From Oecophyllibacter saccharovorans (GTDB lineage: Bacteria > Pseudomonadota > Alphaproteobacteria > Acetobacterales > Acetobacteraceae), in contig NZ_CP038143.1 in the NCBI RefSeq assembly GCF_006542375.1, forward strand, positions 1,736,001 to 1,800,000: a stretch of DNA of 64,000 bases, written 5' to 3'. Shown here piece after piece: positions 7,725 to 64,000 of the stretch; the stretch's first letter is position 1; every line of letters starts with the position of its first letter. The position numbers and the translations under genes are program-made. The notes below the pieces were generated by a model. That model had not been told where the DNA came from, ran no database searches, and was given only the letters and a program-made list of their open reading frames with translations.

Positions 7725-8837
7725 TCAGGCCTGCAGGCCCAGGGGCGCGGTCAGCCTGAAAGCCGGCTCTCCTGCTGCGCGCCGGACAACCTGGCCCATG
7801 AGGACCGGCTCTTCGCCTTCGCTGCGGAGGCGCGCCATGACGGCGTCCGGCTGATCGGTGACCAGCACCATGCCGATGCCGCAGTTGAAGACCTTGAGCA
7901 TTTCTTCAGGCGTTACCGGTCCGGCCTGGGCCAGCCACCTGAACACTTCCGGCACCTTCCAGGCGCTGCCATCCACCTCGACCGCCAGCGTCTGGGGCAG
8001 TACCCGGGGCAGGTTGCCGGGCAGGCCACCGCCGGTGATATGGGCGCAGGCATGCAGCAGACCCGCCTCATGCAGACCCAGCACAGACTTCACGTAAAGC
8101 CGGGTAGGGGTCAGCAGGGCCTGGGCGACGGTTCTGCCAGGCGCGAAGGGGGCCGGGTCGTTCCAGCCCAGACCGCTTGCCCCCACGATGTTTCTGACCA
8201 GCGAAAAGCCGTTGGAGTGCACCCCTGAGGAGGGCAGGCCGATAAGGCTGTCGCCGGCCTGGCAATTGCGCGGCAGCATCTGCCCGCGCTCAGCCGCTCC
8301 CACGCTGAAGCCGCCCAGATCGTAATGACCGCTGGCATAAAGCCCGGGCATCTCGGCTGTTTCCCCACCCACAAGCGCGCAGCCGCTTTCAGCGCAGGCG
8401 CGGGCAATGCCGTCCACGATCTGGCGCGCCACAGGCAAGGTGAGCTTGCCAGTGGCGAGGTAGTCGAGAAAGAAGAGGGGCTGGGCGCCTTGGACGACCA
8501 GGTCATTGACGCACATCGCCACCAGATCGGTGCCGATATCCTCATGCAGTCCGCTTTCGATGGCCAGCAGCAGTTTCGTGCCCACCCCATCCGTGCAGCT
8601 GACCAGAACCGGATCGGTAAAGCCCGCCGCCTTGAGATCGAAAAGCGCGCCGAAGCCGCCGAGTCCTCCCATGACCCCGGGGCGTTTGGTGGCGCTGGCA
8701 GCCGGTTTGATGGCCTCCACCAGGGCATCGCCGGCCTCGATGTCCACGCCAGCACCGGCATAGCTGGCAGGGGTGCGGCTGGCATGAGGCGGGGGGGCAG
8801 GAATTTGGGGCATTGCAGCGAAATTCTTTCCGGACAT
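7725..8837 (-). CDS. purM: Phosphoribosylformylglycinamidine cyclo-ligase
   Basis: AIR synthetase, ATP-dependent ring closure of FGAM in purine synthesis. It contains the N-terminal [12 protein letters not shown] segment, the ATP-binding stretch [19 protein letters not shown], and [15 protein letters not shown]. The C-terminal half has [13 protein letters not shown] and VFNCGIGM, all typical of PurM. The ATG at 8837 gives 370 residues; a second ATG at 8813 (362 residues) is equally plausible, because neither has a strong ribosome-binding site and both keep the whole conserved core. The frame extends further upstream but would overlap the hdaA promoter region. It forms an operon with purN downstream and is divergent from hdaA. 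Confidence 0.95.
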
Positions 8838-8989
8838 GGACCAGGAGCGCGCGTGCAGAACAGGGGAAATCCTGCTTGCTGTTACAAGGGCGTTATAATC
8901 CGCACAGGGAGTGTGGCAAGAGGAACGTGGCTGGAGTAGGGCCGAAAGAGCGGGCCGGTCGAACCGGGCCCGGCGTGGAGGGAAGGGGA

Positions 8990-9844
8990 ATGGCAGAAAC
9001 ACGAACGCACGGACGCAAAGGTCCCTCTCAGGCCGGGCAGAAACAGCCGGAAAAATCCGGGGCTCAGATGGCGCTGGCGCTGGCAGCTGAGCGGGGCACG
9101 AGGGAACGTCCTTTCATTGCGGCGCAGGCCAATGCTCAGGCGCGCTCCTGGCTTGCGCGCCCACGCTGGCCGGCGGAGCGGCTGTGGCTCTGGGGAAATG
9201 CGGGGGTCGGTAAAACGCATCTGATGCACGCCTGGGCGCGCGAGCAGGAAACGCGCGGACGCAAGGTGCAATGGCTTCAGGCGGGCGGCCTGACCCTCGA
9301 CAGCCTGGGGCAGATCTGTGTGGCAGGCGTGCCCTGGGAAGGCGAGCACGCCCCCCTGATGGCGCCCGGGCTGGATATCGTGATCGACAATATTGAGACT
9401 CTGGCCGATGAAGCCGCGCTGCTGCATCTCCTGAACCATGTGCAGCATCTCAACGCGGGCCTGGCTCCACCCGGTCATCATCTCCTGCTGGCGGCCCGCC
9501 TTCCACCTGCTCGCCAGGTTTTCACCTTGGCAGACCTGGCCAGTCGCCTGCGCGCCATACCGGCCGTTGAGGTGCAGGAGCCTGATGACCGGTTGCGGAG
9601 CTCGCTGCTGCTGTCGCTTCTGGCGGCACGGCAGCTGGTGGTGGCCCCCACGGTCATCGAGTGGCTGGAGCGCCACCTGCCCCGTACGGCGCAAGCCCTC
9701 ATCACTTCTGTCGATCGTCTGGATGCGCTGGCCCTGGCGCGTGGGGCGCCTGTAACCCGCGCCCTGGCGGCTGAGGGGCTGGCTGACCTGCTGACAGCGG
9801 TTGAAGAGCCGGCGGTTGCAGATGAAGAGGGGAAAACAACATGA
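8990..9844 (+). CDS. hdaA: DnaA-like regulatory ATPase HdaA
   Basis: Alphaproteobacterial DnaA homologue that, together with the beta clamp, promotes hydrolysis of DnaA-bound ATP and so limits replication initiation. It has 284 residues and consists essentially of the AAA+ domain. An N-terminal QMALAL (residues 26-31) resembles the QxxLxL clamp-binding motif. Walker A is GNAGVGKT (69-76). The Walker B region reads VIDNIE, with Asn at the usual second acidic position. The C-terminal lid contains the [13 protein letters not shown] segment. The DnaA DNA-binding domain IV is absent. The ATG at 8990 follows GGAGG. The order hdaA-ppk-ppx matches other alphaproteobacteria, which strengthens the call. 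Confidence 0.85.
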
Positions 9845-9934
9845 GCTGTACGGGCCACGCTTGCTTGACCCTACGTTTGCTTGGCCCCACGCTTGCTTGA
9901 CCAATGATGCGGCGCCTTTATCCTGCAACAGATC

Positions 9935-12208
9935 ATGACCCATTCCCCCCATCCCGCTGCCCTGCCTGCTGCCCTGCCTGGAAAAGCGCGGGCCGAGGAA
10001 GAAACCCTCCGCTCTGAAAGCAAGGGGGAGGAGAAAAAGTCCGTGATCACCGCGACCATGCCGGAGCGGTTCCTCAACCGGGAGCTCTCCTGGCTGGATT
10101 TCAACGAGCGCGTTCTAGAAGAAGCCAGAAATCCGCGCCATCCCCTGCTGGAGCGGGTCAGATTTCTTTCCATCAGTGCCCGCAACCTGGATGAATTCTA
10201 TTCCGTCCGTGTCGCAGGGCTGGTCGGCCAGGTGCGCGAAGAGCGGGCCGGTCGCAGCCCTGATGGCGCGACGCCTGCCCAGCAGCTTGAAGCCGTGCGC
10301 CTCAAGGGCCGCGCGCTCAAGCAGGCGCAGCAGCGCGTCTGGCGCGATCTCCGCGGCGCATTGCGCGAGGAGGGAATCGTCCTGCTCGGCAGCCGTGACC
10401 TGGAAAAGCCCGATCGCGACTGGCTGGAAGAGTTTTTCAACGAGCAGGTTTTCCCCGTGCTCACCCCCCTGGCCGTGGACCGGGCCCAGCCGCTGCCGTT
10501 CGTGCCTAATATGGGGCTGGCCCTGGTCTTGTGCCTCAAGAACCCGGCCAGCGGGGACCACGTCATGGACGGCATCGTCCTGCTGCCGGCGCGTATTCCC
10601 CGTTTCATCCGCCTGCCGGGCAACGGGCCGGAACGGGACCGGGAAGCACGGTTCGTGCTGCTGGAAGACGTCATCACGCTTTTTGCCGGCCGGCTTTTCC
10701 CCGGCCTGACCATCACCAGCGCCGGCCTGCTGCGGCTCGTGCGCGACACGGACGTGGAATTTGAAGATGAGGCCGAAGACCTGGTCAATGCCTATGAGAC
10801 GGCCCTGAAGCAGCGCCGGCGCGGCACCGGGATCCACCTGGAGATGGAAAGCACGCTGCCGGTCACGCTGGGGCGCGAGATCGGCGAGGACATGGGGGTC
10901 AGCACGGGGGACCTGCTCGTGCTGCCGGAGATGATCGGGCTGGTGGACCTGGAGCAGCTGGTGCGGGCCACGGATCGGTCTGATCTCCTGTTTGCGCCCT
11001 ACACGCCGCTTTTCCCGCAGCGCGTGCTGGATTTTGACGGCGACTGCTTTGCCGCCATCCGGGCCAAGGACATGATCATCCACCATCCGTTCGAAAGCTT
11101 CGACGTGGTGGTGCAGTTCCTGCGCCAGGCGGCGCGTGACCCCAATGTGGTGGCGATCAAGCAGACGCTTTACCGCACTTCGAGCGACAGCCCCATCGTG
11201 CAGGCGCTGATCGAGGCGGCGGAAGCGGGGAAGTCCGTCACGGCGGTGGTGGAGCTGCGGGCGCGTTTCGATGAGGAAGCCAACATCCGCTTCTCGCGCG
11301 CACTGGAGGCGGCAGGCGTGCAGGTGGTGTACGGGCTTGCCGCCTACAAGACCCATGCCAAGCTGAGCCTGGTCGTGCGGCGGGAGGGGAAGGCCCTGCG
11401 CTCCTATGCGCATTTCGGAACCGGGAACTACCACCCCGTTACCGCGCGTATCTATACCGATCTCTCCTTTTTCACCTGTGATGAGAAGCTAGTGAAGGAT
11501 TCTGGTCGGCTGTTCAACTATGTCACCGGCTGGGCGCGGCCCGAGCAGATGGAAGCGCTCTCCTATGCGCCGGTCACGCTGCGGGCTGACCTTGAAGAAC
11601 TGGTGCGGGCGGAAATGCGCCATGCGCGCGAAGGCAGGCCGGCCCATATCTGGCTCAAGATGAACAGCCTGGTGGACCCCCAGCTGATCGACCTGCTTTA
11701 CGAAGCCTCCCAGGCGGGGGTGAGAATCGACGGGCTGGTGCGCGGCATATGCTGCCTGCGCCCGGGCGTGCCGGGGCTGTCGGAAAATATCCGGATCCGC
11801 TCCCTGGTCGGGCGCTTTCTGGAGCATTCCCGCATTTTCGCCTTTGGCAACGGTCGCCGCCTGCCATCGCGCCAGGCCCGGGTTTACATGTCTTCAGCCG
11901 ACTGGATGCCCCGCAACATGGACCGACGCGTTGAAGTCATGGTACCGCTGACCGATCCGGTGGTTCATGCGCAGGTTCTCGGTCAGATCATGGTGGCTGA
12001 CATGCGCGACACGCTTCAGAGCTGGGAGCTGAATGCACAAGGGGAATGGCATCATGTCCCGACCGAGCGGCGCCAGTTTTCCGCCCATGAGTATTTCATG
12101 GCCCATCCCTCCCTTTCAGGCCGCGGCACTGCGGGGGCGGCCGAGCTGATCGCTGAGCCTTACGCGCCTTTCCGCCACCGGCGCGACCTGAGCGGCGAAG
12201 AGGACTGA
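9935..12208 (+). CDS. ppk: Polyphosphate kinase 1
   Basis: Reversible synthesis of inorganic polyphosphate from ATP. It shows the PPK1 N-terminal domain (RFLNRELSWLDFNERVLEEA), the head domain, and the two phospholipase-D-like C-terminal domains. The autophosphorylated histidine is in the YKTHAKLSLVVRR segment, followed by AHFGTGNYHP. From ATG 9935 it has 757 residues. That ATG has no clear ribosome-binding site, whereas GTG 10043 follows a strong GGGGGAGGAG and ATG 10058 begins MPERFLNRE, so the true protein may lack the first 36-41 residues. Eight bases separate it from ppx, so the two probably share an mRNA. Confidence 0.96.
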   Translation: MTHSPHPAALPAALPGKARAEEETLRSESKGEEKKSVITATMPERFLNRELSWLDFNERVLEEARNPRHPLLERVRFLSISARNLDEFYSVRVAGLVGQVREERAGRSPDGATPAQQLEAVRLKGRALKQAQQRVWRDLRGALREEGIVLLGSRDLEKPDRDWLEEFFNEQVFPVLTPLAVDRAQPLPFVPNMGLALVLCLKNPASGDHVMDGIVLLPARIPRFIRLPGNGPERDREARFVLLEDVITLFAGRLFPGLTITSAGLLRLVRDTDVEFEDEAEDLVNAYETALKQRRRGTGIHLEMESTLPVTLGREIGEDMGVSTGDLLVLPEMIGLVDLEQLVRATDRSDLLFAPYTPLFPQRVLDFDGDCFAAIRAKDMIIHHPFESFDVVVQFLRQAARDPNVVAIKQTLYRTSSDSPIVQALIEAAEAGKSVTAVVELRARFDEEANIRFSRALEAAGVQVVYGLAAYKTHAKLSLVVRREGKALRSYAHFGTGNYHPVTARIYTDLSFFTCDEKLVKDSGRLFNYVTGWARPEQMEALSYAPVTLRADLEELVRAEMRHAREGRPAHIWLKMNSLVDPQLIDLLYEASQAGVRIDGLVRGICCLRPGVPGLSENIRIRSLVGRFLEHSRIFAFGNGRRLPSRQARVYMSSADWMPRNMDRRVEVMVPLTDPVVHAQVLGQIMVADMRDTLQSWELNAQGEWHHVPTERRQFSAHEYFMAHPSLSGRGTAGAAELIAEPYAPFRHRRDLSGEED

Positions 12209-18805: not shown

Positions 18806-18882
18806 TGGTGCACTCGAGAGGACTCGAACCTCTAACCCCCAGATTCGTAGTCTGGTGCTCTATCCAGTTGAGCTACGAGTGC
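18806..18882 (-). tRNA. tRNA-Arg (anticodon ACG), copy 1
   Basis: On the minus strand the sequence folds as a full cloverleaf: acceptor GCACTCG, D arm with AGCTCAACTGGATAGAGC, anticodon stem CCAGA/TCTGG enclosing loop CTACGAA (anticodon ACG, normally edited to ICG), T arm AGAGG-TTCGAGT-CCTCT, discriminator A and an encoded CCA. It is 77 bases long and identical to the second copy 87 bases away. Confidence 0.96.
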
Positions 18883-18968: not shown

Positions 18969-19045
18969 TGGTGCACTCGAGAGGACTCGAACCTCTAACC
19001 CCCAGATTCGTAGTCTGGTGCTCTATCCAGTTGAGCTACGAGTGC
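18969..19045 (-). tRNA. tRNA-Arg (anticodon ACG), copy 2
   Basis: Same 77-base cloverleaf as the copy at 18806-18882, with identical sequence including encoded CCA. The flanks differ almost immediately outside the gene, so the duplicated unit is essentially the tRNA itself. On the minus strand this copy is transcribed first. Confidence 0.96.
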
Positions 19046-19746: not shown

Positions 19747-21390
19747 TTGACGCAGTCCTCTCCCGCCCAGACCGCCCGCCCTCACGAAAGTTCCCCTGAC
19801 CTTTCACAGCCAGGCGCTGCCGGCCAGCTGGAGGCCGTTCTGCATGAAGACCGCATCCTGATTCTTGATTTCGGCAGCCAGGTGACCCAGCTGATCGCCC
19901 GCCGCGTGCGGGAAAGCGGGGTGTATTGCGAGATCTGGCCCTTCACTGCGTCAGTTGAAAAGATCCGCGCTTTCGGCCCGCGCGGTATCATTCTCTCGGG
20001 CAGCCCGGCAAGCGTGCATGATGCCAACGCGCCCGCCCTGCCTGAAGGGCTCTTCGAGCTGGGGCTGCCGGTGCTGGGCATCTGCTACGGCCAGCAGGCG
20101 ATGTGCCAGCTGCTGGGCGGCAAGGTGGAGACCCATGAGCACCGCGAGTTCGGCCGCGCCTATGTTGACGTGGCGGAGCCCTGCGCGCTTTTCCACGGTG
20201 TCTGGCATGTGGGCGCGCGTGAGCAGGTCTGGATGAGCCATGGCGACCGCGTGACCGCCCTGCCGCCGGGCTTCAGGGCCGTTGCCCATTCGGAAGGTGC
20301 CCCTTACGCGATCATCGCCGATGAGGCGCGCAAGCTCTACGGCGTGCAGTTCCACCCGGAGGTGGTGCACACGCCCCATGGTGCGGCTTTGCTGCGCAAC
20401 TTCACCCATGGCGTGGCCGGCTGCAAGGGCAACTGGACGATGGCCAGCTTCCGCGACCTGGAAATGGCGCGCATCCGCGAGCAGGTCGGCGAGGGGCGGG
20501 TGATCTGCGGCCTGTCAGGCGGGGTGGACAGCTCCGTGGCTGCCAAGCTGATCCATGACGCGATCGGCGACCAGCTGACCTGCATCTTCGTCGATCCCGG
20601 GATTTTGCGTGCAGGCGAGGCTGAAGAGGTGGTGCGCACTTTCCGCGATGAGTTCAACATCCGCCTGGTGCACCGCGATGCGTCAGACCTGTTCCTCAAC
20701 GCCCTGGCCGGGGTGACGGACCCTGAGGTGAAGCGCAAGACGATCGGCCGCCTGTTCATTGAGGTGTTCGAGGAGGAAGCGGCCAAGCTGGGCGGGGCGC
20801 AGTTCCTGGCCCAGGGCACGCTTTACCCGGATGTGATCGAAAGCGTCAGCTTCAGCGGCGGCCCTTCGGTAACCATCAAGTCCCACCACAATGTGGGCGG
20901 GCTGCCCGAGCGCATGAACATGAAGCTGGTCGAGCCGCTGCGTGAGCTGTTCAAGGACGAGGTCCGCGCCCTGGGCCGCGAGATCGGCGTGCCCGAGCGC
21001 ATCGTCAGCCGCCATCCCTTCCCGGGGCCAGGGCTTGCCATCCGCATTCCAGGCGACATCACGCGCGAAAAGCTGGACCTACTGCGCAAGGTGGACAGCA
21101 TCTATCTCGAGGAGATCCGCAAGGCCGGTCTGTATGACGAGATCTGGCAGGCCTTCGCCGTGCTGTTGCCGGTGCGCACGGTCGGCGTGATGGGCGACGG
21201 CCGCACCTACGACCAGGCCTGCGCCCTGCGGGCCGTGACCAGCACGGACGGCATGACCGCGGAAGTCTACCCCTTCAGCTTCGACTTCCTGAACCGCGTC
21301 GCCGGCCGTATCGTCAATGAAGTGCGGGGCATCAACCGCGTGACCTACGACATCACCTCCAAGCCGCCTGGGACGATTGAGTGGGAGTGA
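19747..21390 (+). CDS. guaA: GMP synthase (glutamine-hydrolysing)
   Basis: Converts XMP to GMP with glutamine as nitrogen donor. The N-terminal class I amidotransferase domain has its catalytic Cys in GICYGQ (Cys113) and the His/Glu partner in [10 protein letters not shown]. The ATP-pyrophosphatase domain has the PP-loop [11 protein letters not shown], and the C-terminal dimerisation domain ends in PPGTIEWE. It has 547 residues. The start is a TTG at 19747 behind AAGGTGG; no ATG or GTG occurs before the conserved [11 protein letters not shown], so an unusual start is required. The 3' end of guaA is a well-known integration site for genomic islands, and base composition changes abruptly right after its stop. 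Confidence 0.97.
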
Positions 21391-21577
21391 GAAGCACGAT
21401 TTAGAGCTAATTCTTTTAAATTAAATAGTTCAACTTGGGAAAGGTAGCTGTATTTTGGACATTGTTTAGAATTTAAAAACAGGCGCTTATAAATTTCCTT
21501 TATGAATAAACAAAACAGTTGCCCGAATCCCGCATGAAATTTTCCAATTAAATCAATTATGGGCTAGCTCTTTATAA

Positions 21578-22702
21578 ATGCTTCATATTCGCCTTGAAAA
21601 AATCCGTTTTTTGGTAATGGAAATGCGGCTTGTGCTTCGGTTAGTTCAAGCCGCTCCTACTGATGAAGTGGCTCGGATAATTGCACGGCATATATTTGTT
21701 CGCTTAGAAAATTTCATCCAGCATGCACGTCAATTAAAAAAGTTTTTGAACACTTCTGGATATAATACGAATCATTATCATAAAATTAAAGAAGAATATG
21801 TAAAATTATTTGAAGATTACTCCAAAAAAATTCGCAATCATCTTAGCGCCCATATTCAAGATCTTGATTTAAGAGAAATTCTAGTATTTTGGTACTTTAT
21901 TGATGAGGAAAAACTAAGCATCTTTGTGGAGCTGGCAGCCAAAATATATTCTTCCCTTGAGAATTTAGGAATTGTAGGATTCCCAATTTTAAAAGATTTC
22001 CCTGAAATTAATGAGCCAGTTTTTAAAGAAACTTTACTGGATTGGGAGGGGTCCGGGGAAAAAAGCAATGGTTTTGAAGTAGCTAGAGATCCTTTTTCTA
22101 GAGCACGTCCTGACACACTATCTATTGGTAATTATGATTTTCCACTCATTAATCGAGCGCAGCAGATATATTTTCTCTATCGCTGGATAACAATTCAGAA
22201 AGAAGTTTATGAAAAATTTAAGGGCTTTGCAAATGTTGTGCGTATAATAAAATCTCGTATTATTACTGATGTAGTAAGTTCAATTGATTGTCTTGTTACA
22301 CGTGATATTGATCCCTCACGCCCTCAATATCTAGAAGGGTTTGATAAACTATTTAAAAAATGTTTCCCAGAGAATCCTTTAGAGGAATTTAAGAAAGAAT
22401 TTTCAATTGAAAATATAGTCGCTCCATATCGAGACGTTAGAAATAAATTTGGAGCTCACTTTGAAAAAAGTGTCTCTTACTCACTTATAGATTTAAAGAA
22501 ACTCATTGATGAAAGTGATTTAAATTTAGCTCTTAAAGAATATGAAACACTTATATTTATATTTGATAATTTATGCAAATACCATCGAAACCTTTACATA
22601 TATTGCCCCTCAATGAGTTTTTATATAGACGACCCAAATATTATAGATTTAATCTCTAAAACTAATAAAAATTATACATTTCCTTTTCATAAGAGTTCAT
22701 AA
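21578..22702 (+). CDS. Unknown protein with two HEPN-like Rx5H motifs
   Basis: 374 residues, predicted mostly helical, rich in Ile, Lys, Phe and Asn, unlike its GC-rich neighbours. I do not recognise the family. Two segments share the same pattern: IRNHLSAH (Arg86-x5-His92) and VRNKFGAH (Arg288-x5-His294), each preceded by a long amphipathic helix. An RN followed a few residues later by His matches the Rx4-6H motif of HEPN ribonucleases, many of which act in phage defence or toxin-antitoxin systems. The two copies are about 200 residues apart, which suggests a tandem or pseudo-dimeric arrangement. No signal peptide or membrane segment is seen. The start codon has no clear ribosome-binding site. 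No antitoxin-like partner (for example MNT) lies next to it. Function is inference only. Confidence 0.7.
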   Translation: MLHIRLEKIRFLVMEMRLVLRLVQAAPTDEVARIIARHIFVRLENFIQHARQLKKFLNTSGYNTNHYHKIKEEYVKLFEDYSKKIRNHLSAHIQDLDLREILVFWYFIDEEKLSIFVELAAKIYSSLENLGIVGFPILKDFPEINEPVFKETLLDWEGSGEKSNGFEVARDPFSRARPDTLSIGNYDFPLINRAQQIYFLYRWITIQKEVYEKFKGFANVVRIIKSRIITDVVSSIDCLVTRDIDPSRPQYLEGFDKLFKKCFPENPLEEFKKEFSIENIVAPYRDVRNKFGAHFEKSVSYSLIDLKKLIDESDLNLALKEYETLIFIFDNLCKYHRNLYIYCPSMSFYIDDPNIIDLISKTNKNYTFPFHKSS

Positions 22703-23113
22703 GAGGAGGTAGGAAATATCTCTATATGACATAATGTTATTTAGACGCCTGGAAATTGGAGATATATCAATAGAAATATATTTAAAATTCTTATGATGTC
22801 GATCTTAAATTCATATCATTAATTATCAAGCGTAGAAAATGTCAGGTTAGGTGGCAAAAACTCTGTTTCGGTTTTCGTATTTGTTATATAGGCTCCTTAG
22901 AACGAGTTGTGAAAACACTTTGCTTTAAAGCAGCTTTGTACTCTTAACAAAAAATTAACGGTTGCAGGGGAAGTTGAATTTTCCGGGCGTTTCTGTAGAG
23001 TTGGACCTTGATTGCAGGTCCCGTGGAACGCGGTTTCACGGGGCGCATGAGGCGTTATGTTGGTGAATGGGGCTGTTACGGGCCCGCGCACGCAAACCAG
23101 GAGCTGATTCGTC
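22703..23113. other. Intergenic region, AT-rich to GC-rich transition
   Basis: 411 bases between the AT-rich gene and the peroxidase. The left two thirds continue the AT-rich composition with no open frame of note. A perfect 12-base palindrome, TGCTTTAAAGCA, lies at 22921-22932, and the inverted repeat CCCGTG/CACGGG at about 23019-23042 marks the return to GC-rich sequence. It probably contains the peroxidase promoter, but no -35/-10 pair is convincing. Confidence 0.5.
22921..22932. promoter_or_regulatory. 12-bp perfect palindrome upstream of the peroxidase
   Basis: TGCTTTAAAGCA reads the same on both strands. It lies about 180 bases ahead of the DyP start, in the transition out of the AT-rich block. 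It could be an operator half or a chance palindrome; nothing links it to a named regulator. Confidence 0.25.
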
Positions 23114-24053
23114 ATGACCACCAAACCTGTCCCGCAAGCAGTTGCGGCTCTGCTGACACCGTGCGCCATGTTCCTGGTGCTGACCATCAAGCCGGGCCGT
23201 GAAGCCGAAAAAAACGGTTCTTGAAGTCCTGGCTGACATGAGCGGCCTGCAGCGGACGGTGCGTTTCCGCAACCTGCATGCTGATTTCACCTGCGTGACC
23301 GGCATCGGCTCCCATGCGTGGGACCGCCTGTTCCCGGGCAAGCCGCGCCCCAAGGAGCTGCATCCCTTCATCGAGATGAAAGGCGCCAAATACACCGCGC
23401 CCAGCACGCCCGGTGATCTGCTGTTCCACATCCGCGCCTCGCAGATGTATATGTGCTTCGAGATGGCCATGCTGATCATGGACCGCCTGCGCGCCGTGAC
23501 CGAGACGCAGGATGAAGTGCACGGCTTCAAATATTTTGATGACCGCGACCTGCTCGGCTTCGTGGACGGCACCGCTAACCCTGAAGGGCCTTACGCGGTC
23601 GAAGCCACCATGATCGGTGAGGAAGACCCCGAATTCGTCAATGGCAGCTACGTGATCGTGCAGAAATACATGCATGACCTTAAAACCTGGAACGAGCTGC
23701 CGGTCGAGATGCAGGAGAAGATCATCGGGCGCAAGAAGCTCTCCAATGTCGAGCTGCCTGACGATGAAAAGCCGCCTTATGCCCATAACGTGCTGAACGT
23801 GGTGGTGAAAGACGGCAAGCAGATCGACATTCTGCGTGACAACATGCCCTTCGGCGAAGTGGGCGATGCCCATTTCGGGACGTATTATATCGGCTACGCG
23901 AAATCTGCCGCCACGACCGAGGAAATGCTGCACAACATGTTCATCGGCAAGCCGGTGGGCAATTACGATCACATCCTGGATTTCAGCACGGCCAAGACCG
24001 GTTGCCTGTTCTTCGTGCCGACCGAGGATTTCCTCAACAACGTCAAGGCCTGA
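23114..24053 (+). pseudogene. DyP-type haem peroxidase, interrupted by a frameshift in an A7 run
   Basis: Dye-decolourising peroxidase of the DypB-like class. The main frame (GTG 23199 to TGA 24053) carries the GxxDG motif as GFVDGTANP, the proximal haem His in YAHN, the distal Arg and Asn in ILRDN, and the family ending ILDFSTAKTG-x-LFFVP. The natural N terminus, with MFLVLTIKPGREAE, is encoded in a different frame from ATG 23114. The two frames meet at seven A residues (23208-23214); with six A's they join into one protein of about 312 residues, the normal length. As written, translation from 23114 stops soon after in KNGS. The core is well preserved, so this is either a very recent mutation, a homopolymer sequencing error, or a gene rescued by transcriptional slippage. 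No signal peptide is seen. Confidence 0.85.
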
Positions 24054-58900: not shown

Positions 58901-59562
58901 CCCTCGCTTCACATGATCTGGACATGCGCGGGGCGGGTAACCTGCTGGGCGAAGAGCAGTCAGGCCATATCCGTGAAGTCGGCATCGAGCTCTACCAGCA
59001 GATGCTGCAGGAAGCAGTGAGTGACCTGCGCCGCGAGCGCGGGCGTGAGATGGAAGAGGAGAGGGGCTGGACTCCCACCATCATCCTGGGCTTGCCGGTG
59101 CTGCTGCCTGAAGCCTATGTGCCTGACCTGTCGGTCCGCCTGGGGCTCTATCGCCGTATTGCTAGCCTGCAGAATGAGGCTGAAGTGGAAGCGATGCGTG
59201 TGGAGCTGGTGGACCGCTTCGGCACGCTACCGCCGGAAGTGGAAACGCTTCTCGAAGTGGTGCTCATCAAGAAACTCTGCCGCGAGACAGGCGTGGAGCG
59301 TCTGGAAACCGGTCCGAAAGGTATGGTGATCCAGTTCCGCCAGAATCGCTTTGCCGACCCGGAAGGGCTGATGCGCTGGGTGGCGCGCAACCAGAAGGCT
59401 GGTGCTAAAGTCAGGCCCGACCAGAAACTGGCGATCGTGCGCGAAATGACGAATTCCGTACGTATAAAGCTGGCCCGGAAAGTGCTGGGCGTCCTTCAGA
59501 AGATGGTCCGGCAGGTCGAGGGGCAGGAGAGTGCCGGGTCTGATACGGCGAAGGCGGGCTGA
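55924..59562 (+). CDS. mfd: Transcription-repair coupling factor
   Basis: Removes stalled RNA polymerase and recruits UvrA. 1212 residues, slightly longer than E. coli Mfd (1148) due to an N-terminal tail of about 40 residues. UvrB-like N-terminal region (VLRFPAWDCLPYDRASP), the RNAP-interacting CarD-like domain (GDLVVHEEYGIGRYVGLETV), Walker A GDVGFGKTEVAL, motif II IIDEEQHFGVSHK, TLSATPLPRTL, and QLRGRVGRGKQRGYAYL. The C-terminal UvrA-binding-region TRCF domain is present. Confidence 0.98.
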   Translation: MPDFPSAENHSSPSAVSPALAGDSDVSDTEGFGVPVRAVPDSSIAFLLRQRLAEQEAPLVHVARDDASMAALGEMLEWLMPEVEVLRFPAWDCLPYDRASPNPALVAERAATLSHLLEPAPRAGRIVLTTVHALLQRVPPQHVFAGQTIRVTVGEELDAPQLAELLVDTGYTRVDTVMERGEFASRGGIFDLFPADGEEPIRLEFFGDEVEKIRHFDPATQRSTDSLEAFALGPVSEYALDRESIGRFRAGWRDSFGTGALNDTLYQQVIEGRRAAGAEHYLPLFHESFAGSEASSSASGAQSGMATLLDYVPGAALSFERDTPAILEARLEMIADHYQARLAAVKEGETPYRPLPPYRLYLDREGWKAMVARHPAILLSPFGYEGGAPGSSELVSGIDAGYRPTPLFAGLGGKAREGVFEAFGAQVKAWAKEGRRTYVTAWSRGSRERIAHLLAEHGIETVSYDSWPQAAAMGRKTVGLVVLGMERGFVSDRQVFVSEQDLLGERLARPPRRRRKSSEFITQIGEITAGDLVVHEEYGIGRYVGLETVTEGRVAHDYLSILYDGEQRLLLPVENIDLLSRFGAEQEGLQLDRLGGTAWQARKAKMKTRLREMAGELIRTAAARAMKKAPLMAPAEGAWDEFCARFPFVETEDQMRAIAEVLEDMNSGVPMDRLVCGDVGFGKTEVALRAAFVAAMSGRQVAVVVPTTLLARQHFRGFSERFEGLPVKVAQLSRMVTPKEAENVRAGLADGSIDIVIGTHALLSKHVSFDRLGLLIIDEEQHFGVSHKEKLKAMREDVHVLTLSATPLPRTLQLSLSGVREMSLIATPPTDRLSVRTFITPFDRVMIREAIQRERFRGGQVFCVVPRLADMGRMAERLKEIVPDARIAEAHGRLSPTELESVMSAFSEGKYDILLSTNIVESGLDMPGVNTIIIHRADMFGLGQLYQLRGRVGRGKQRGYAYLTWPQTRPLSASSLKRLEVMQTLDSLGAGFTLASHDLDMRGAGNLLGEEQSGHIREVGIELYQQMLQEAVSDLRRERGREMEEERGWTPTIILGLPVLLPEAYVPDLSVRLGLYRRIASLQNEAEVEAMRVELVDRFGTLPPEVETLLEVVLIKKLCRETGVERLETGPKGMVIQFRQNRFADPEGLMRWVARNQKAGAKVRPDQKLAIVREMTNSVRIKLARKVLGVLQKMVRQVEGQESAGSDTAKAG

Positions 59563-59606
59563 AAACAGCGAAGAAACACTACAACAACTGGAGACCGGGG
59601 AACTGA

Positions 59607-59643
59607 AGACCGGGGCTGCTTTGTCAGTGTCCCCGGTCTTTTT
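59607..59643 (+). terminator. Rho-independent terminator after mfd
   Basis: AGACCGGGG and CCCCGGTCT form a perfect 9-base stem around a 15-base loop, followed by T's, about 45 bases past the mfd stop. A partial direct copy of the left arm (GAGACCGGGG) lies just upstream at 59591-59600. Confidence 0.82.
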
Positions 59644-59663
59644 GCGCGCGGTCTTTTCAGGCC

Positions 59664-60890
59664 TTAGGCGTCAGCGTCGAGCGCCAGATAAGGATTGGAA
59701 GCAGACCCGAACATTTCATAATGGATCTGCTCGGTCGGCAATCCAGCTTCCTTGAGGGTCTGGACCATCAGCACCAGGAAATCGACCGGCCCGCAGATGT
59801 AATAATCGGCTGTCCGGTCCAGATTGGTCGTGACCCACTCAAAGGGGATGCGGCCTTCATGCACCGCCATTCCGGGGGTTGTGGCGGGCGCGCCTGCCTT
59901 ATCACGGCTGAAGAACAGGTCAGCCGTCATTTTCTTCTCGGCAGTGAGCTTGCGGATGAGATCTCCGAAAGCTTCTGTCTTGGGGCTGTGAGTGCTGTGC
60001 ACGTAATGCATCTTCGGGGCGTTGGCGTTTTCAGCCAGCGTTTCAATCATGGAGATCATGGGCGTGACACCCACGCCACCACTCAGGAAAACGACGGGCT
60101 TCTGCGGCTCAGCAGGGAGCTGGAAGTCACCGGCCGGCGCTGAGACATCCAGCTCCTGGCCTTCGCGGACATTGTCATAAAACCAGTTGGAGACCACACC
60201 TTCCGGCTGGCGTTTGATGGTCAGGCGGTAATGGTCATGGGAAGGGGCTGAGGAAATGCTGTAATTGCGCCGCTGCGAGCCATGCTCGGGCACATCCAGG
60301 CGGAAGCTCAGATACTGCCCAGGCTTGTGCAGCATGACTTCCTTGCCGTCAGCAGGCACCAGCTTGAAGGAGACGATGTCTTCCGCTTCTGGCCGGCGCT
60401 CAGCCACACGGAAGCGACGCCATCCGACCCAGCCGCCTGGCTGGTGGGCATGATCCTCATAGATCTGGTGTTCGCGACCGATCAGGACGTCGGCCAGGAA
60501 CCAGTAGGCTTCTGTCCAGGCAGCCATGATTTCTGGCGTGGCAGCGTCTCCCAGCACGTGGGCGATGGCTTCCAGAAGGGCTTTACCCACGTAAGGATAA
60601 TGCTCGGGCAGGATGTTGAGGCCGACATGTTTTTCAGCAATGCGTTCGATCATCGGCCCGAGAGGGGCGGGGTTATCAATGTGCTTGGCATAGGCCAGCA
60701 CTGAAAAGGCCAAAGCTCTTTGCTGCTCTCCATCCTTCTGGTGCGACATGTTGAAAAGATCGCGGATTTCTGGATTGGCCAGGAGGCGTTTGTACATTTC
60801 CTGCGTAATGTCGACGCCTTTGGCTTCCAGCGCCGGAACACAGGCTTTGACGATGGCTTTGGTTTCCGGGGAGAGAGGTTTGGGGGCCAT
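59664..60890 (-). CDS. hmp: Flavohaemoglobin, nitric oxide dioxygenase
   Basis: Oxidises NO to nitrate with O2 and NAD(P)H. 408 residues. Globin domain (1-140) with the proximal haem His in EKHVGLNILPEHY region, FAD-binding domain with RRNYSISSAP, and NAD domain with FLSGGVGVTPMISM and YYICGPVDFLVLM. AAGGA precedes the ATG. It is divergent from an NsrR-like regulator, with a candidate operator between them. Confidence 0.97.
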   Translation of the reverse strand: MAPKPLSPETKAIVKACVPALEAKGVDITQEMYKRLLANPEIRDLFNMSHQKDGEQQRALAFSVLAYAKHIDNPAPLGPMIERIAEKHVGLNILPEHYPYVGKALLEAIAHVLGDAATPEIMAAWTEAYWFLADVLIGREHQIYEDHAHQPGGWVGWRRFRVAERRPEAEDIVSFKLVPADGKEVMLHKPGQYLSFRLDVPEHGSQRRNYSISSAPSHDHYRLTIKRQPEGVVSNWFYDNVREGQELDVSAPAGDFQLPAEPQKPVVFLSGGVGVTPMISMIETLAENANAPKMHYVHSTHSPKTEAFGDLIRKLTAEKKMTADLFFSRDKAGAPATTPGMAVHEGRIPFEWVTTNLDRTADYYICGPVDFLVLMVQTLKEAGLPTEQIHYEMFGSASNPYLALDADA

Positions 60891-61242
60891 GAAATATGAA
60901 TCCTTGCAGAAGCTATGTCGTTTTGGATCGTTTTAGTGTATTATTAACTTTCCACGTTCAGAATTTCATAATATAAAGATACATGTAAAGTATATTTTTT
61001 AGAAATTTTCCCCGAATCCCAATGCGCCTTCTGCTGTCGCCGGCAGGGTAGAAAGGAACTTTCACCCCTTTCCTGGGCGGAACGATTCGGCGCAGAAATA
61101 CAACAGGGGCGAAAAAGTTAAGAAACAGGTTAACGCTTCTGCTATTGTTCCGTGAAGGCCTATAGAGAGCTGTTTAACCAATTTTTAACCGTTTTCTGAG
61201 GAAACGCCCTTTAAATAACTTTGAAAATGATTGGGGAGTGCT
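60891..61242. other. Divergent hmp/nsrR control region
   Basis: 352 bases between the two start codons, distinctly AT-rich at 60940-61010. It holds the NsrR-like box (60976-60998), and several GTTAAC/GTTTAACC-type repeats at about 61119-61190. No gene seen. Confidence 0.7.
60976..60998. promoter_or_regulatory. Candidate NsrR operator for hmp
   Basis: AAGATACAT-GTAAA-GTATATTTT has the 9-5-9 layout of the known NsrR site (AAGATGCAT-n5-ATGCATCTT): eight of nine bases match in the left arm and five of nine in the right. It lies about 86 bases before the hmp start, in the AT-rich part where the hmp promoter should be. Confidence 0.55.
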
Positions 61243-61716
61243 ATGCGCCTGACATTACATACAGATTATGCGTTCAGGACCCTGATCTATCTGGGGGTCA
61301 ACAGTGACCGCTTGATTCCCCTGGCGGAAGTGGCGCGCGTTTACGGAATATCGGTCAATCATCTCGTGAAGGTCATTCACGGTCTGGGGCAGGAAGGCTT
61401 CATCCAGACCATACGGGGTCGTTCAGGCGGAATCCGGCTGGCGCGCCCCCCCGAAGAGATCAGCCTGCTTGATGTGATCAGCCATACGGAAGGCGATCTG
61501 GTGCTGCTAGGCTGCATGCGCGAAGGGACGTCCAAGGCCTCCAACAAAGAGTTCGAGTGTCTGCTTGAATGCGGCTGTGCGATGAAGAACGTTCTCAACA
61601 AGGCGCGACTGGCTTTTCTGAAAACCTTTTCAGGCAAGACCCTTGCCGATGTAATCACGCCTCATGAGCGTCGCCTTCTCGCCCGGCGGCAGGAAGAGCT
61701 CCGGAATGCCTCCTGA
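61243..61716 (+). CDS. nsrR: Rrf2-family regulator, NsrR-like
   Basis: Iron-sulfur-type repressor, likely sensing NO and controlling hmp. 157 residues from ATG 61243 (GGGGAG upstream). Winged helix: MRLTLHTDYAFRTLIYL, VARVYGISVNHLVKVIHGL, IRGRSGGIRLA. The cluster region holds four Cys in the pattern C-x14-C-x3-C-x-C, whereas well-studied NsrR proteins have three Cys with a much shorter first gap. The last pair of spacing positions (C-x5-C followed by helix AMKNVLNKA) aligns with NsrR. Identity as NsrR is supported by the neighbour hmp. Confidence 0.85.
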   Translation: MRLTLHTDYAFRTLIYLGVNSDRLIPLAEVARVYGISVNHLVKVIHGLGQEGFIQTIRGRSGGIRLARPPEEISLLDVISHTEGDLVLLGCMREGTSKASNKEFECLLECGCAMKNVLNKARLAFLKTFSGKTLADVITPHERRLLARRQEELRNAS

Positions 61717-61792
61717 CGTGCCTTCGGCTGCTTAAGCGCCGCTGAAACTTTTCCGGTACTTACTACTTCATTTAGGCTGTTCTCTATCACGT

Positions 61793-62644
61793 TCAGCCCT
61801 GCGTTTGCGTCTCGGGCTGACCGCGAAATCCCATGGCAATGACGTAAAGCTCTCGCGATTCCTTGCGGGAAGCTGGCGGTTTCACATGGCGGACAGTGGC
61901 GTAGTTCTTTTTCAGCGTATCGAGCATCTGCTTTTCAGCGCCGCCCTGAAAGACTTTGGCGATAAAGGCCCCGCCAGGGGCAGTGATCTGCAGGGCGAAG
62001 TGGAGGGCGTTGTCGGTTAGGCCCATGATGCGGAGATGATCAGTGCTTGGATGGCCGGTGGTATTGGGCGCCATGTCCGACATGACCAGATCAGCGCGTC
62101 CGCCCAGCATCTTCTCCAGGCGCTCGGGCATGTCGTCAGCCATGAAATCCCCTTCGATGATTTCTGCCCCTGGTACGGGATCAACGGGAAGAAGATCCAC
62201 GCCGACAATTTTTGAACGCGGGGCGCGTTTGGCTGCAACCTGTGCCCAACCGCCTGGCGCCGCTCCCAGATCGACGATTTTCATGTCAGGCTGGAAAAAA
62301 TGGAATCGGTCATCCATTTCCATCAGTTTGAAGGCTGCGCGTGAGCGCCAGCCCTGCTGGCGGGCCGCATTGACGTAAGGATCATTGAGCTGGCGCTGTA
62401 GCCAGCGGACCTGCGCTGTTGTGCGGCCGCGTGCTGATTTGACCTTGACCACCTTGTTGCGCAGGGTGCGGGAAGCGCTGGTATCCTGGTGCGGATCGCG
62501 CATGCCCGGAATGCGGCGGGAGCGCAGAGGCTTGCCCGGAATGCGTTTCGAGGAGCCTGTTCTGGCAGTCGGCACTGCTGGGGCGGACGCTGCTTTTTCC
62601 GGCTGGTCTGTCGGGCCCTCTGCGGAATCAGGGGTGTTATCCAT
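61793..62644 (-). CDS. rlmE: 23S rRNA (uridine-2'-O)-methyltransferase RlmE
   Basis: FtsJ/RrmJ, 2'-O-methylates U2552 in the 50S subunit. 283 residues from ATG 62644, with GGAGG eight bases upstream. SAM-binding VDLGAAPGGWAQVA; the K-D-K-E set is visible as SRAAFKLMEM, VMSDMAPNTTGH, FIAKVFQGG and RKESRELYVIA. The N-terminal 70 residues are a Pro/Arg/Ser-rich extension absent from E. coli RlmE. The frame continues open upstream through the tRNA region but is not coding there. Confidence 0.94.
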   Translation of the reverse strand: MDNTPDSAEGPTDQPEKAASAPAVPTARTGSSKRIPGKPLRSRRIPGMRDPHQDTSASRTLRNKVVKVKSARGRTTAQVRWLQRQLNDPYVNAARQQGWRSRAAFKLMEMDDRFHFFQPDMKIVDLGAAPGGWAQVAAKRAPRSKIVGVDLLPVDPVPGAEIIEGDFMADDMPERLEKMLGGRADLVMSDMAPNTTGHPSTDHLRIMGLTDNALHFALQITAPGGAFIAKVFQGGAEKQMLDTLKKNYATVRHVKPPASRKESRELYVIAMGFRGQPETQTQG

Positions 62645-62828
62645 GAGAGGTCCTCCAGGAAGATGGCAGAGCCCGCGCTGCTTGAGCGAGGGGCAGGAAT
62701 GAAACCAGGTGGGGGAATTATTGTCTCCCAGGCCAGAGAAGGGCAAGGGGCATCCGCTGGAGCGGAAGATTATCTGGGGGTTGCGCAAGACAAGCACAGA
62801 AAATCTCAGGAAAGATCCCAAAAACAGC

Positions 62829-62857
62829 TTGCGCTCTTTTCTGGAGGAGTCTAGAAA
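62829..62857 (+). promoter_or_regulatory. Candidate promoter for tRNA-Gln
   Basis: TTGCGC and TAGAAA are spaced 17 bases apart and end 27 bases before the tRNA. Both boxes are weak matches; position is the main support. Confidence 0.3.
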
Positions 62858-62884
62858 CCACTCAACGACGCGAATGTCGCCGCT

Positions 62885-62958
62885 TGGGAGATAGTTTAGC
62901 GGTAGAACTACCGGCTCTGACCCGGTCAGCCCTGGTTCGAATCCAGGTCTCCCAGCCA
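62885..62958 (+). tRNA. tRNA-Gln (anticodon CTG)
   Basis: Cloverleaf with acceptor TGGGAGA/TCTCCCA, anticodon stem ACCGG/CCGGT enclosing loop CTCTGAC (anticodon CTG), T arm CCTGG-TTCGAAT-CCAGG, discriminator G and encoded CCA. The U1-A72 start is typical of glutamine tRNAs. 74 bases with CCA. Confidence 0.95.
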
Positions 62959-63260
62959 GTTTAATGCTTAAGCGCCAATTGATATGAGTTAGAGATCCTA
63001 AAGCTTCGGTCATAACCGAAGCTTTTTTTGCGCTCTGTCCTCTGTGTACTCTGCGCCATTGAGCTTTTATAAACCCTGTCTCCAAATCACTGGCCGCTCC
63101 TGCTTCTTGGGTGGTAGTTGCAAGGTTTCAAAAGGTAACTGCGTCTTCGCGGCCACAGTGCTGTTGAAGAGAAGGGCGGCTGGTGGGCAGCAGGTTTATC
63201 TCAGGGTTTTCTGGGCCTATTGAAGAGAAAAGAAACGGTTTATTTCTCTCGAGGCTGCTT
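62959..63260. other. Region between tRNA-Gln and the secreted protein gene
   Basis: 302 bases. Contains the tRNA terminator at its left end and, at its right end, the GAGG ribosome site of the next gene. Nothing else recognised. Confidence 0.5.
63000..63029 (+). terminator. Rho-independent terminator after tRNA-Gln
   Basis: AAAGCTTCGGT and ACCGAAGCTTT form a perfect 11-base stem with a CATA loop and run into a T tract. It lies about 40 bases past the tRNA 3' end. Confidence 0.9.
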
Positions 63261-63878
63261 ATGAAACGCCCGGTTTCGGTCCTTGCACTGGCCTGTTCAG
63301 CTCTCCTCCTTACAGGAGAGGGGCTGCGAAAGGCCTGGAGTGTGGCTGATACGACATCCGTGCCTGGCGTGACGGTTCCAGACACCCCTGAAACGATCAA
63401 GATCGTTCCAAGGGCCTATGAAGGCAGGAAACCGGAAGCCACACTGATCGGCAATTGGACCCTGCATTTTGGAACGCTGCCTGAACTGATCTTTCAGTCT
63501 GATGGCAATATGGTGGAAGTTTACGGTCTGAGGCCCGAAGAGGATATCGTGCGGGCTTCGCTCATCGTGCACCTCGAGCATAAGCTGGCCGGATGTTACA
63601 GAGGCAAGATCTGGGTGGTATTCGGCAATGGCGACCGCTTTCCCTCCAGGGTTTCACCGGGTTGCACTGAAATACGCCTGATTGCGGCTAATTTCGGGGC
63701 TTACGAGGAAATCGGCAAGGCGATTGAAGAAGCGCTGCCCACGGCCATTGAACAGGGCAGAAATGTGATCCGGCTCAAGGCGCATGGTGTCAAGGCCGAT
63801 ATCCAGCGTTTCCGGCGCGGCATCCGACCTGTCATCGTCGAGCGGGTAACGAGTGACGGTCTGCAGAAGGCTGAGTGA
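63261..63878 (+). CDS. Exported protein of unknown function
   Basis: 205 residues from ATG 63261 (GAGG seven bases upstream). N-terminal signal-like segment MKRPVSVLALACSALLLTGEG; there is a Cys but no proper lipobox. The mature part has GNWTLHFGTLPELIFQSDGN, a central charged segment, and two Cys (AGCYRG and SPGCTE) that could pair, then a helical stretch EEIGKAIEEALPTAIEQG. I do not recognise a family. Composition matches the surrounding genome. Confidence 0.7.
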   Translation: MKRPVSVLALACSALLLTGEGLRKAWSVADTTSVPGVTVPDTPETIKIVPRAYEGRKPEATLIGNWTLHFGTLPELIFQSDGNMVEVYGLRPEEDIVRASLIVHLEHKLAGCYRGKIWVVFGNGDRFPSRVSPGCTEIRLIAANFGAYEEIGKAIEEALPTAIEQGRNVIRLKAHGVKADIQRFRRGIRPVIVERVTSDGLQKAE

Positions 63879-63884
63879 GAGACG

Positions 63885-64000
63885 ATGACGGTCGCATTGT
63901 TTCCTGACCGATCAGGACCATTATGGTTCTGGTCAGGACGGTTGCAAAGCGTTATGAAATCCTGCCAATGGCCCGGCGCCTCAGGGGTGAGTGGCTACAC
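63885..64000 (+). CDS. Possible start of a further gene, cut by window end
   Basis: An ATG just after the previous stop, with GAGAGA upstream, opens a frame that runs to the window edge (38 full codons). The peptide (MTVALFPDRSGPLWFW...) is not recognised. It may be a real partial gene or chance. Confidence 0.2.
   Translation, partial: MTVALFPDRSGPLWFWSGRLQSVMKSCQWPGASGVSGY

Follow-up and report, generated by a model that had tools for sequence, protein, structure and literature searches.

The locus considered here raises the question of whether a single protein chain can hold both parts of an RNA-cutting site and act in defence on its own. It lies in a stretch of 64,000 nucleotides, called the window below, from the Oecophyllibacter saccharovorans chromosome NZ_CP038143.1, which is 1.94 Mb long. 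From the sequence, a gene in an AT-rich island of this window had been predicted to encode a self-contained HEPN-type ribonuclease, possibly a defence protein, on the strength of two short Arg/His motifs in its translation.

The AT-rich insert and its gene

Over most of the 64-kb window the GC content is 0.62-0.69, against 0.32 in the insert. The insert is flanked by two genes, which we take to be guaA (19747-21390, GC 0.66), the upstream neighbour of the 374-aa gene, and a Dyp-type-peroxidase-like open reading frame (ORF). The predicted AT-rich, foreign-looking island is real, since the ORF at 21578-22702 on the forward strand has a GC content of 0.319 (GC3 0.224) versus 0.657 for guaA. The frame is intact and both motifs are found as predicted, RNHLSAH at residues 86-92 and RNKFGAH at residues 288-294. 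The insert, the gene and the two motifs are located as follows.

~21391..23000, no strand: AT-rich insert, GC 0.321 versus 0.62-0.66 on either flank; ends approximate
21578..22702, forward strand: gene for the 374-aa tandem-HEPN-like protein (putative nuclease half of a ~760-aa family), with nine BLAST relatives
21833..21853, forward strand: motif 1, R86-N-H-L-S-A-H92 (R-[NDH]-x4-H); R and H in 10 of 10 proteins, N, D or H after R in 10 of 10
22439..22459, forward strand: motif 2, R288-N-K-F-G-A-H294 (R-[ND]-x4-H); R and H in 10 of 10 proteins, N or D after R288 in 10 of 10

Integration at the 3' end of guaA was considered: with up to 3 mismatches allowed, no second copy of the last 15 bases of guaA was found in the window. 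The downstream peroxidase gene was present in one relative among 30. AbiF is a case with a non-coding RNA partner; no Rfam family passed its cut-off in the window insert, and the two sub-threshold rows, rliF (E 0.93) and a viral 3'UTR model (E 0.32), were both far below their cut-offs.

Two further observations were made in the window. Firstly, two tRNA-Arg(acg) genes (18806-18882 and 18969-19045) lie on the strand opposite guaA, with their starts 163 bases apart. Secondly, there is another, milder GC dip at 59000-64000 (GC 0.54-0.60), which contains a tRNA-Gln and ORFs that are presumably a flavohaemoprotein-like gene (59664-60890) and an Rrf2-like regulator (61231-61716).

Relatives, conserved motifs and defence-gene neighbours

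The window protein matched no Pfam, NCBIfam or PADLOC family at E<=0.001, so the original statement that it has no recognised family holds at this threshold; the Pfam rows TetR_C_10 and HJURP_C (E 0.04-0.05) were under their own cut-offs. Likewise, the relatives scanned gave no Pfam or PADLOC model at E<=0.001 (NCBIfam was run for the window protein only), and the family had no PDB sequence or profile match. Because of this, defence surveys based on Pfam, NCBIfam or PADLOC would probably overlook it. The proposed profile search against HEPN families gave no significant match; HEPN_AbiU2 was the one family with a weak hit, E 0.21 in one of nine members. Homology to AbiU2 was pursued and rejected: four AbiU2 proteins fetched via the Pfam model ranked no higher than decoys, hhalign with two of these four gave E 0.15 and 0.33, which are not significant, and an alignment with AbiU2 proteins put the motifs in the wrong place and was left out.

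Direct searches found one relative, encoded on an Agrobacterium pusense plasmid and 34% identical over 344 residues, with RHKLGAH and RDQIGGH as its motifs. A degenerate motif-1 pattern was then run over the genome contigs of 84,980 species. This gave 29 loci, eight of which were true relatives by tblastn, while the other 21 were not and were dropped. The eight come from a Caulobacteraceae bacterium (UBA3198), Rhodoblastus acidophilus, a proteobacterial metagenome-assembled genome (MAG), Rhizobium sp. FKY42, Paraburkholderia madseniana, Burkholderia sp. L27(2015), Marinimicrobium and Methylobacterium sp. 2A. All nine relatives are thus proteobacterial, with 30-43% identity to the window protein, the closest being that of Burkholderia sp. 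L27(2015) with 43% over residues 1-371 of 374. Two weak profile matches with internal stops, L003 (E 0.003) and L004 (E 0.007), were excluded from all counts.

The family is rare. The window genome was the sole positive among 299 genomes of its family and among 398 genomes of its phylum, and the starting genome was again the sole positive among 394 genomes searched in the family of the Rhizobium relative. One plasmid in 72,556 carries a relative. A phage origin was looked for, and no relative was found in 50,697 phage records or in five scans of viral contigs.

The HEPN motif is described as Rx4-6H with a polar residue, N, D or H, after the arginine (PMC3710099). The bare Rx4-6H pattern was discarded as evidence, being common by chance at this composition: it occurs four times in the window protein against a mean of 1.7 in 20,000 shuffles (P 0.08). 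Two copies of R[ND]x4H, on the other hand, were present in 0.12% of 20,000 shuffles of the window protein. Judged from the sequences, conservation is a stronger test than chance motif frequency. Five of the residues invariant in the ten-protein alignment are R86, H92, R285, R288 and H294, and the predicted Arg/His pairs are therefore kept in all ten proteins. Motif 1 was used to fetch eight of the nine relatives, and its conservation is unbiased only for the Agrobacterium protein. The conservation of motif 2, kept in all nine relatives, is unbiased, since this motif was not a search criterion. Helix 2 of unit 1 holds a third, loose pair, R33/H38; it too is invariant, but its arginine is not followed by N, D or H. 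Within residues 1-345, 13 of 22 arginines and three of nine histidines are invariant, H92 and H294 being among the latter.

For the neighbourhood survey, PADLOC models (E<=1e-35) were run on 103 mechanically called ORFs of at least 150 aa surrounding the nine relatives. As a control, they were run on 124 ORFs in eight 20-kb stretches that lie on the contigs of the relatives, at other places, in five of those genomes. The ORFs around the relatives matched 74 models, and those of the control 15, all of them RmrA, RmrT or mad3. Listed among 25 of the 74 models were type II/IIG restriction-modification, GajA/GajB, HerA, oligonucleotide cyclase, 2TM effector, IetA, PDC-S15 and RmrA. With 25 of the 74 matched models listed, known defence genes were placed near at least six of the nine relatives. 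The relatives thus recurrently lie among defence genes, as the original prediction had led one to expect.

Individual loci differ in their neighbours. GajA adjoins the Agrobacterium relative on the opposite strand, with a split GajB beyond it and IetA/IetS downstream. HerA-DUF4297 lies near the Burkholderia relative, a TIR/ThsB protein and an nSTAND3 ATPase near the Caulobacteraceae relative, and a type IIG enzyme and an FRG/PDC-S15 protein near that of the MAG. Two loci were placed by reading the sequences: we take the Methylobacterium locus to hold a cyclase and a 2TM effector (CBASS) and the Marinimicrobium locus a type II restriction-modification pair. No defence neighbour was found for the Rhodoblastus, Rhizobium and Paraburkholderia relatives among the 25 of 74 matched models listed, RmrA not being placed. 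Three relatives have integrases or a resolvase close by, and integrase or plasmid surroundings are typical of mobile defence genes.

Three of the neighbouring genes deserve separate mention. The Gabija helicase gene gajB at the Agrobacterium locus (L002:5987-7894) is in two frames, of 107 and 512 aa, and may be broken. An ORF of 696 aa between the Burkholderia relative and HerA-DUF4297 (L034:5321-7411) has no Pfam or PADLOC match at E<=0.001; it is possibly a further defence gene. The nSTAND3 ATPase (L036:11317-15339; 1340 aa, with HEAT repeats) adjoins the Caulobacteraceae relative and is convergent with it; its best PADLOC match, at E 1.8e-5, is not a strong one.

Predicted fold and the missing C-terminal half

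The AlphaFold model of the window protein, built from a nine-row alignment (mean pLDDT 83.1, pTM 0.86), has two helical units, followed by a tail.

21578..21970, forward strand: HEPN-like unit 1, residues 1-131 (AlphaFold); helices 2-24, 29-59, 65-82, 98-106 and 110-128
22133..22603, forward strand: HEPN-like unit 2, residues 186-342 (AlphaFold); helices 189-213, 218-239, 277-292, 303-312 and 315-335; insert 240-276
22604..22699, forward strand: tail, residues 343-374, start of the linker before the missing solenoid; Burkholderia match to residue 371

In the model, the third long helix of unit 2 runs from residue 277 to 292, and motif 2 straddles its end; the insert at 240-276 sits between helices 2 and 3 of this unit. 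Motif 1 is found just past helix 65-82, the third of unit 1, in a stretch of low confidence (residues 86-88 have pLDDT < 50). In published HEPN domains, which are all-helical up-down bundles, the motif sits at the end of helix 3 or where the loop to helix 4 begins, and an insert may separate helix 2 from helix 3 (PMC3710099). Another element, an acidic residue of an Ex3[KR] motif in helix 2, is typical of "many" HEPN families, not all, according to the same source (PMC3710099). The Ex3[KR] motif was found in neither unit; helix 2 of unit 2 has the invariant acids D231 and D237, and helix 2 of unit 1 has no invariant acid. An hhalign comparison of the two units aligned motif 1 with motif 2, at a score of 26.1 (E 0.0013 for a single pair, Prob 18%). 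The controls, each unit against the C-terminal solenoid of the family, scored 13.5 and 13.3 (E 0.38 and 0.45).

Foldseek gave no match at E<=0.001. Five HEPN proteins were among the 50 VIA-align rows listed, namely AbiV (9bj7; Z 5.0 over 121 residues of unit 2), two Csm6 (Z 4.2 and 3.9), a HEPN-domain protein (4nqf; Z 3.8) and Csx1-Crn2 (Z 3.7), where Z values below about 13 may reflect an arrangement common to helical bundles. Alpha-catenin outscored AbiV (Z 5.5), and GPCR chains filled much of the rows listed. AbiV itself is described as being without the histidine of the HEPN motif (PMC3710099). The proposed structural check was thus answered in part: two helical units with motifs near helix 3 were predicted, whereas the fold and profile searches are no more than suggestive in placing the window protein near HEPN proteins. 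The wider claim, that of two HEPN motifs in one defence-related chain, is supported because the Arg/His pairs are invariant, the residue after the arginine is polar, the motifs are at helix 3 and defence genes are neighbours. HEPN superfamily membership of both units is probable.

Two other readings of the units have to be weighed. According to one, the protein has an unrelated all-helical fold, and its two R-[NDH]-x4-H segments are accidental or serve some other catalysis or binding. The dominance of generic helical bundles in the fold search would fit this, as would the R33/H38 pair, an invariant Rx4H which occurs here without the signature. It would however require a coincidence of the spacing, the polar residue after the arginine, the place of the motif at helix 3 in each unit and the location among defence genes, and the doubled R[ND]x4H is rare in shuffles even before conservation is considered. 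We regard an unrelated fold as quite improbable. According to the other reading, the units are HEPN-like but non-catalytic, forming a paired helical domain for which the solenoid serves as a scaffold and which binds RNA, a nucleotide or a partner. Inactive HEPN versions have been published, but those described had lost the motif, wholly or partly (PMC3710099), while here both arginines and both histidines are kept in 10 of 10 proteins, the two histidines being two of only three that are invariant among nine. The many invariant arginines (13 of 22) are what a nucleic-acid binder could have, and none of the active HEPN families was matched significantly; on balance a non-catalytic role seems rather unlikely to us. 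The preferred reading of the units is that of two HEPN-like domains, each with its motif.

The idea that the window protein is a self-contained ribonuclease found no support. The seven complete relatives are 756-764 residues long, about twice the 374 residues of the window protein, a difference that the window sequence alone does not reveal. After residue ~387 the Caulobacteraceae relative was modelled as an alpha-solenoid (pLDDT 77, pTM 0.52) with HEAT/TPR-like matches, a generic arrangement. This ~370-residue half is absent from the window protein. Since the solenoid is present whole or in part in all nine relatives, the window gene has probably been truncated and corresponds to the 5' half of the gene for a ~760-aa family member. 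No convincing remnant of the C-terminal half was found downstream of the window gene, and none elsewhere in the host genome in a search made without a positive control. One 36-residue match at 23032-23139 (E 0.013 in a 0.9-kb search, 1.1 in the whole window) was taken as chance.

Two of the other copies are also incomplete. That of Rhizobium sp. FKY42 (L039:38-1861 and 8773-8927) diverges near residue 595, where a contig ends. A ctRNA_p42d antisense RNA and an S-element were found on this contig as well, and we take them to be signs of a repABC plasmid. The Paraburkholderia madseniana copy (L040:6774-10337) is split into its first ~507 and last ~250 residues, ~1.1 kb apart, as if the solenoid part had taken an insertion.

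Of the 62 columns of the N-terminal half in which the nine relatives do not vary, the window protein keeps 52. This is the lowest score obtained when each of the ten proteins is left out in turn; the other members keep from 52 of 58 to 52 of 52. By this count no other member has diverged as far, as would fit either a distant lineage or a copy in early decay. The copy may be decaying, given the same count and the toxicity to be expected of an active ribonuclease without its sensor. We give an even chance to the window gene being a dead fragment, once a ~760-aa defence gene from an AT-rich donor, which lost its 3' half while the family itself is functional. The short length, the lack of a convincing remnant, the column count and the other two copies broken in the C-terminal half all favour this, and promoter-like sites at the window gene were not in excess (7 versus 7.1 in shuffles). 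Yet the frame of the N-terminal half is unbroken and retains both Arg/His pairs, half of the ten changed columns are conservative (I for L, K for R), and the stop falls in the inter-domain linker, a plausible end for a stand-alone nuclease. Death of the window copy is compatible with the best explanation of the family, which is set out below.

Proposed action and comparison with known systems

Taken together, the findings make it likely, in our judgement, that the family is a tandem HEPN-like ribonuclease with a solenoid sensor which acts by abortive infection, and that the window gene is the 5' half of such a gene. By analogy with known systems, the two HEPN units would pair within one chain, as in Cas13, and R86/H92 together with R288/H294 would form a metal-independent RNA-cutting site. 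The solenoid, as a putative sensor, would keep the nuclease inactive until it bound a phage or plasmid component. Activation would then lead to cutting of cellular RNA, and growth would stop before the invader multiplies. The ribonuclease activity, the intramolecular pairing, the sensor role and the abortive infection are all drawn from such analogies. As an effector without its sensor, the window copy would be silent, inactive or differently used, that is, an unexpressed or inactive remnant or a nuclease under other control.

A literature search over titles and the beginnings of abstracts, with supplements and subscription papers outside its reach, found no such tandem-HEPN family named. The family is probably a new, unnamed and rare branch of bacterial immunity, a putative tandem-HEPN abortive-infection branch. 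HEPN ribonucleases are typically homodimers, Cas13 being set in contrast to them as having both domains in one chain (PMC12165695). Slightly short of an even chance, in our view, is the more far-reaching idea that this is a single-protein immune family which reached the intramolecular HEPN pair by an independent route, with a solenoid sensing an invader protein instead of a guide RNA. If true, there would be a second, unguided lineage, and the Cas13-like design would have arisen in ordinary innate immunity too. It would also offer a small ribonuclease whose activity might be steered by a separable sensor.

Cas13 of type VI, including the compact Cas13an, has two HEPN domains in one chain which form an intramolecular RNase site, as described in PMC12165695. 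The family is similar in having two units in one chain, each with a motif, the HEPN identity of the units being probable, and differs in the HEAT/TPR-like solenoid that follows the HEPN-like pair. No array-like direct repeat was found within ~1-3 kb of the gene in six of six loci or in the window insert, the sole repeat in the six loci being a two-copy one of 151 nt at the Rhodoblastus acidophilus locus (L035), which encodes a full-length relative at 9023-11308. No Rfam family passed its cut-off near the gene in L034-L040. As no adjacent CRISPR array was found in these loci, the family was not filed as Cas13.

AbiU2 has one HEPN domain per chain, unlike the two HEPN-like units of the family, and there is no significant homology between them. 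One AbiU2 protein carries RNKFLAH, nearly identical to RNKFGAH of window motif 2. The family resembles AbiU2, AbiD/AbiF and other Abi HEPN ribonucleases in the Rx4-6H motif and in the defence context (PMC3710099); AbiD/AbiF were set beside it by description. It also resembles the LA2681-type and STAND-TPR HEPN proteins, which are published fusions of HEPN with TPR repeats (PMC3710099, Table 1). The descriptions of these in PMC3710099 name no tandem HEPN arrangement, and on these descriptions they were set apart.

A model for how the family could work is Tha, a single-gene HEPN ribonuclease of a Staphylococcus prophage with a further region, which is activated by a phage tail protein and degrades RNA (PMC11087260). 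Unlike the family, Tha has 301 aa and one HEPN domain and is predicted to be a homodimer (PMC11087260), whereas the proteins described here would bring both HEPN-like units, and the putative sensor, in one chain.
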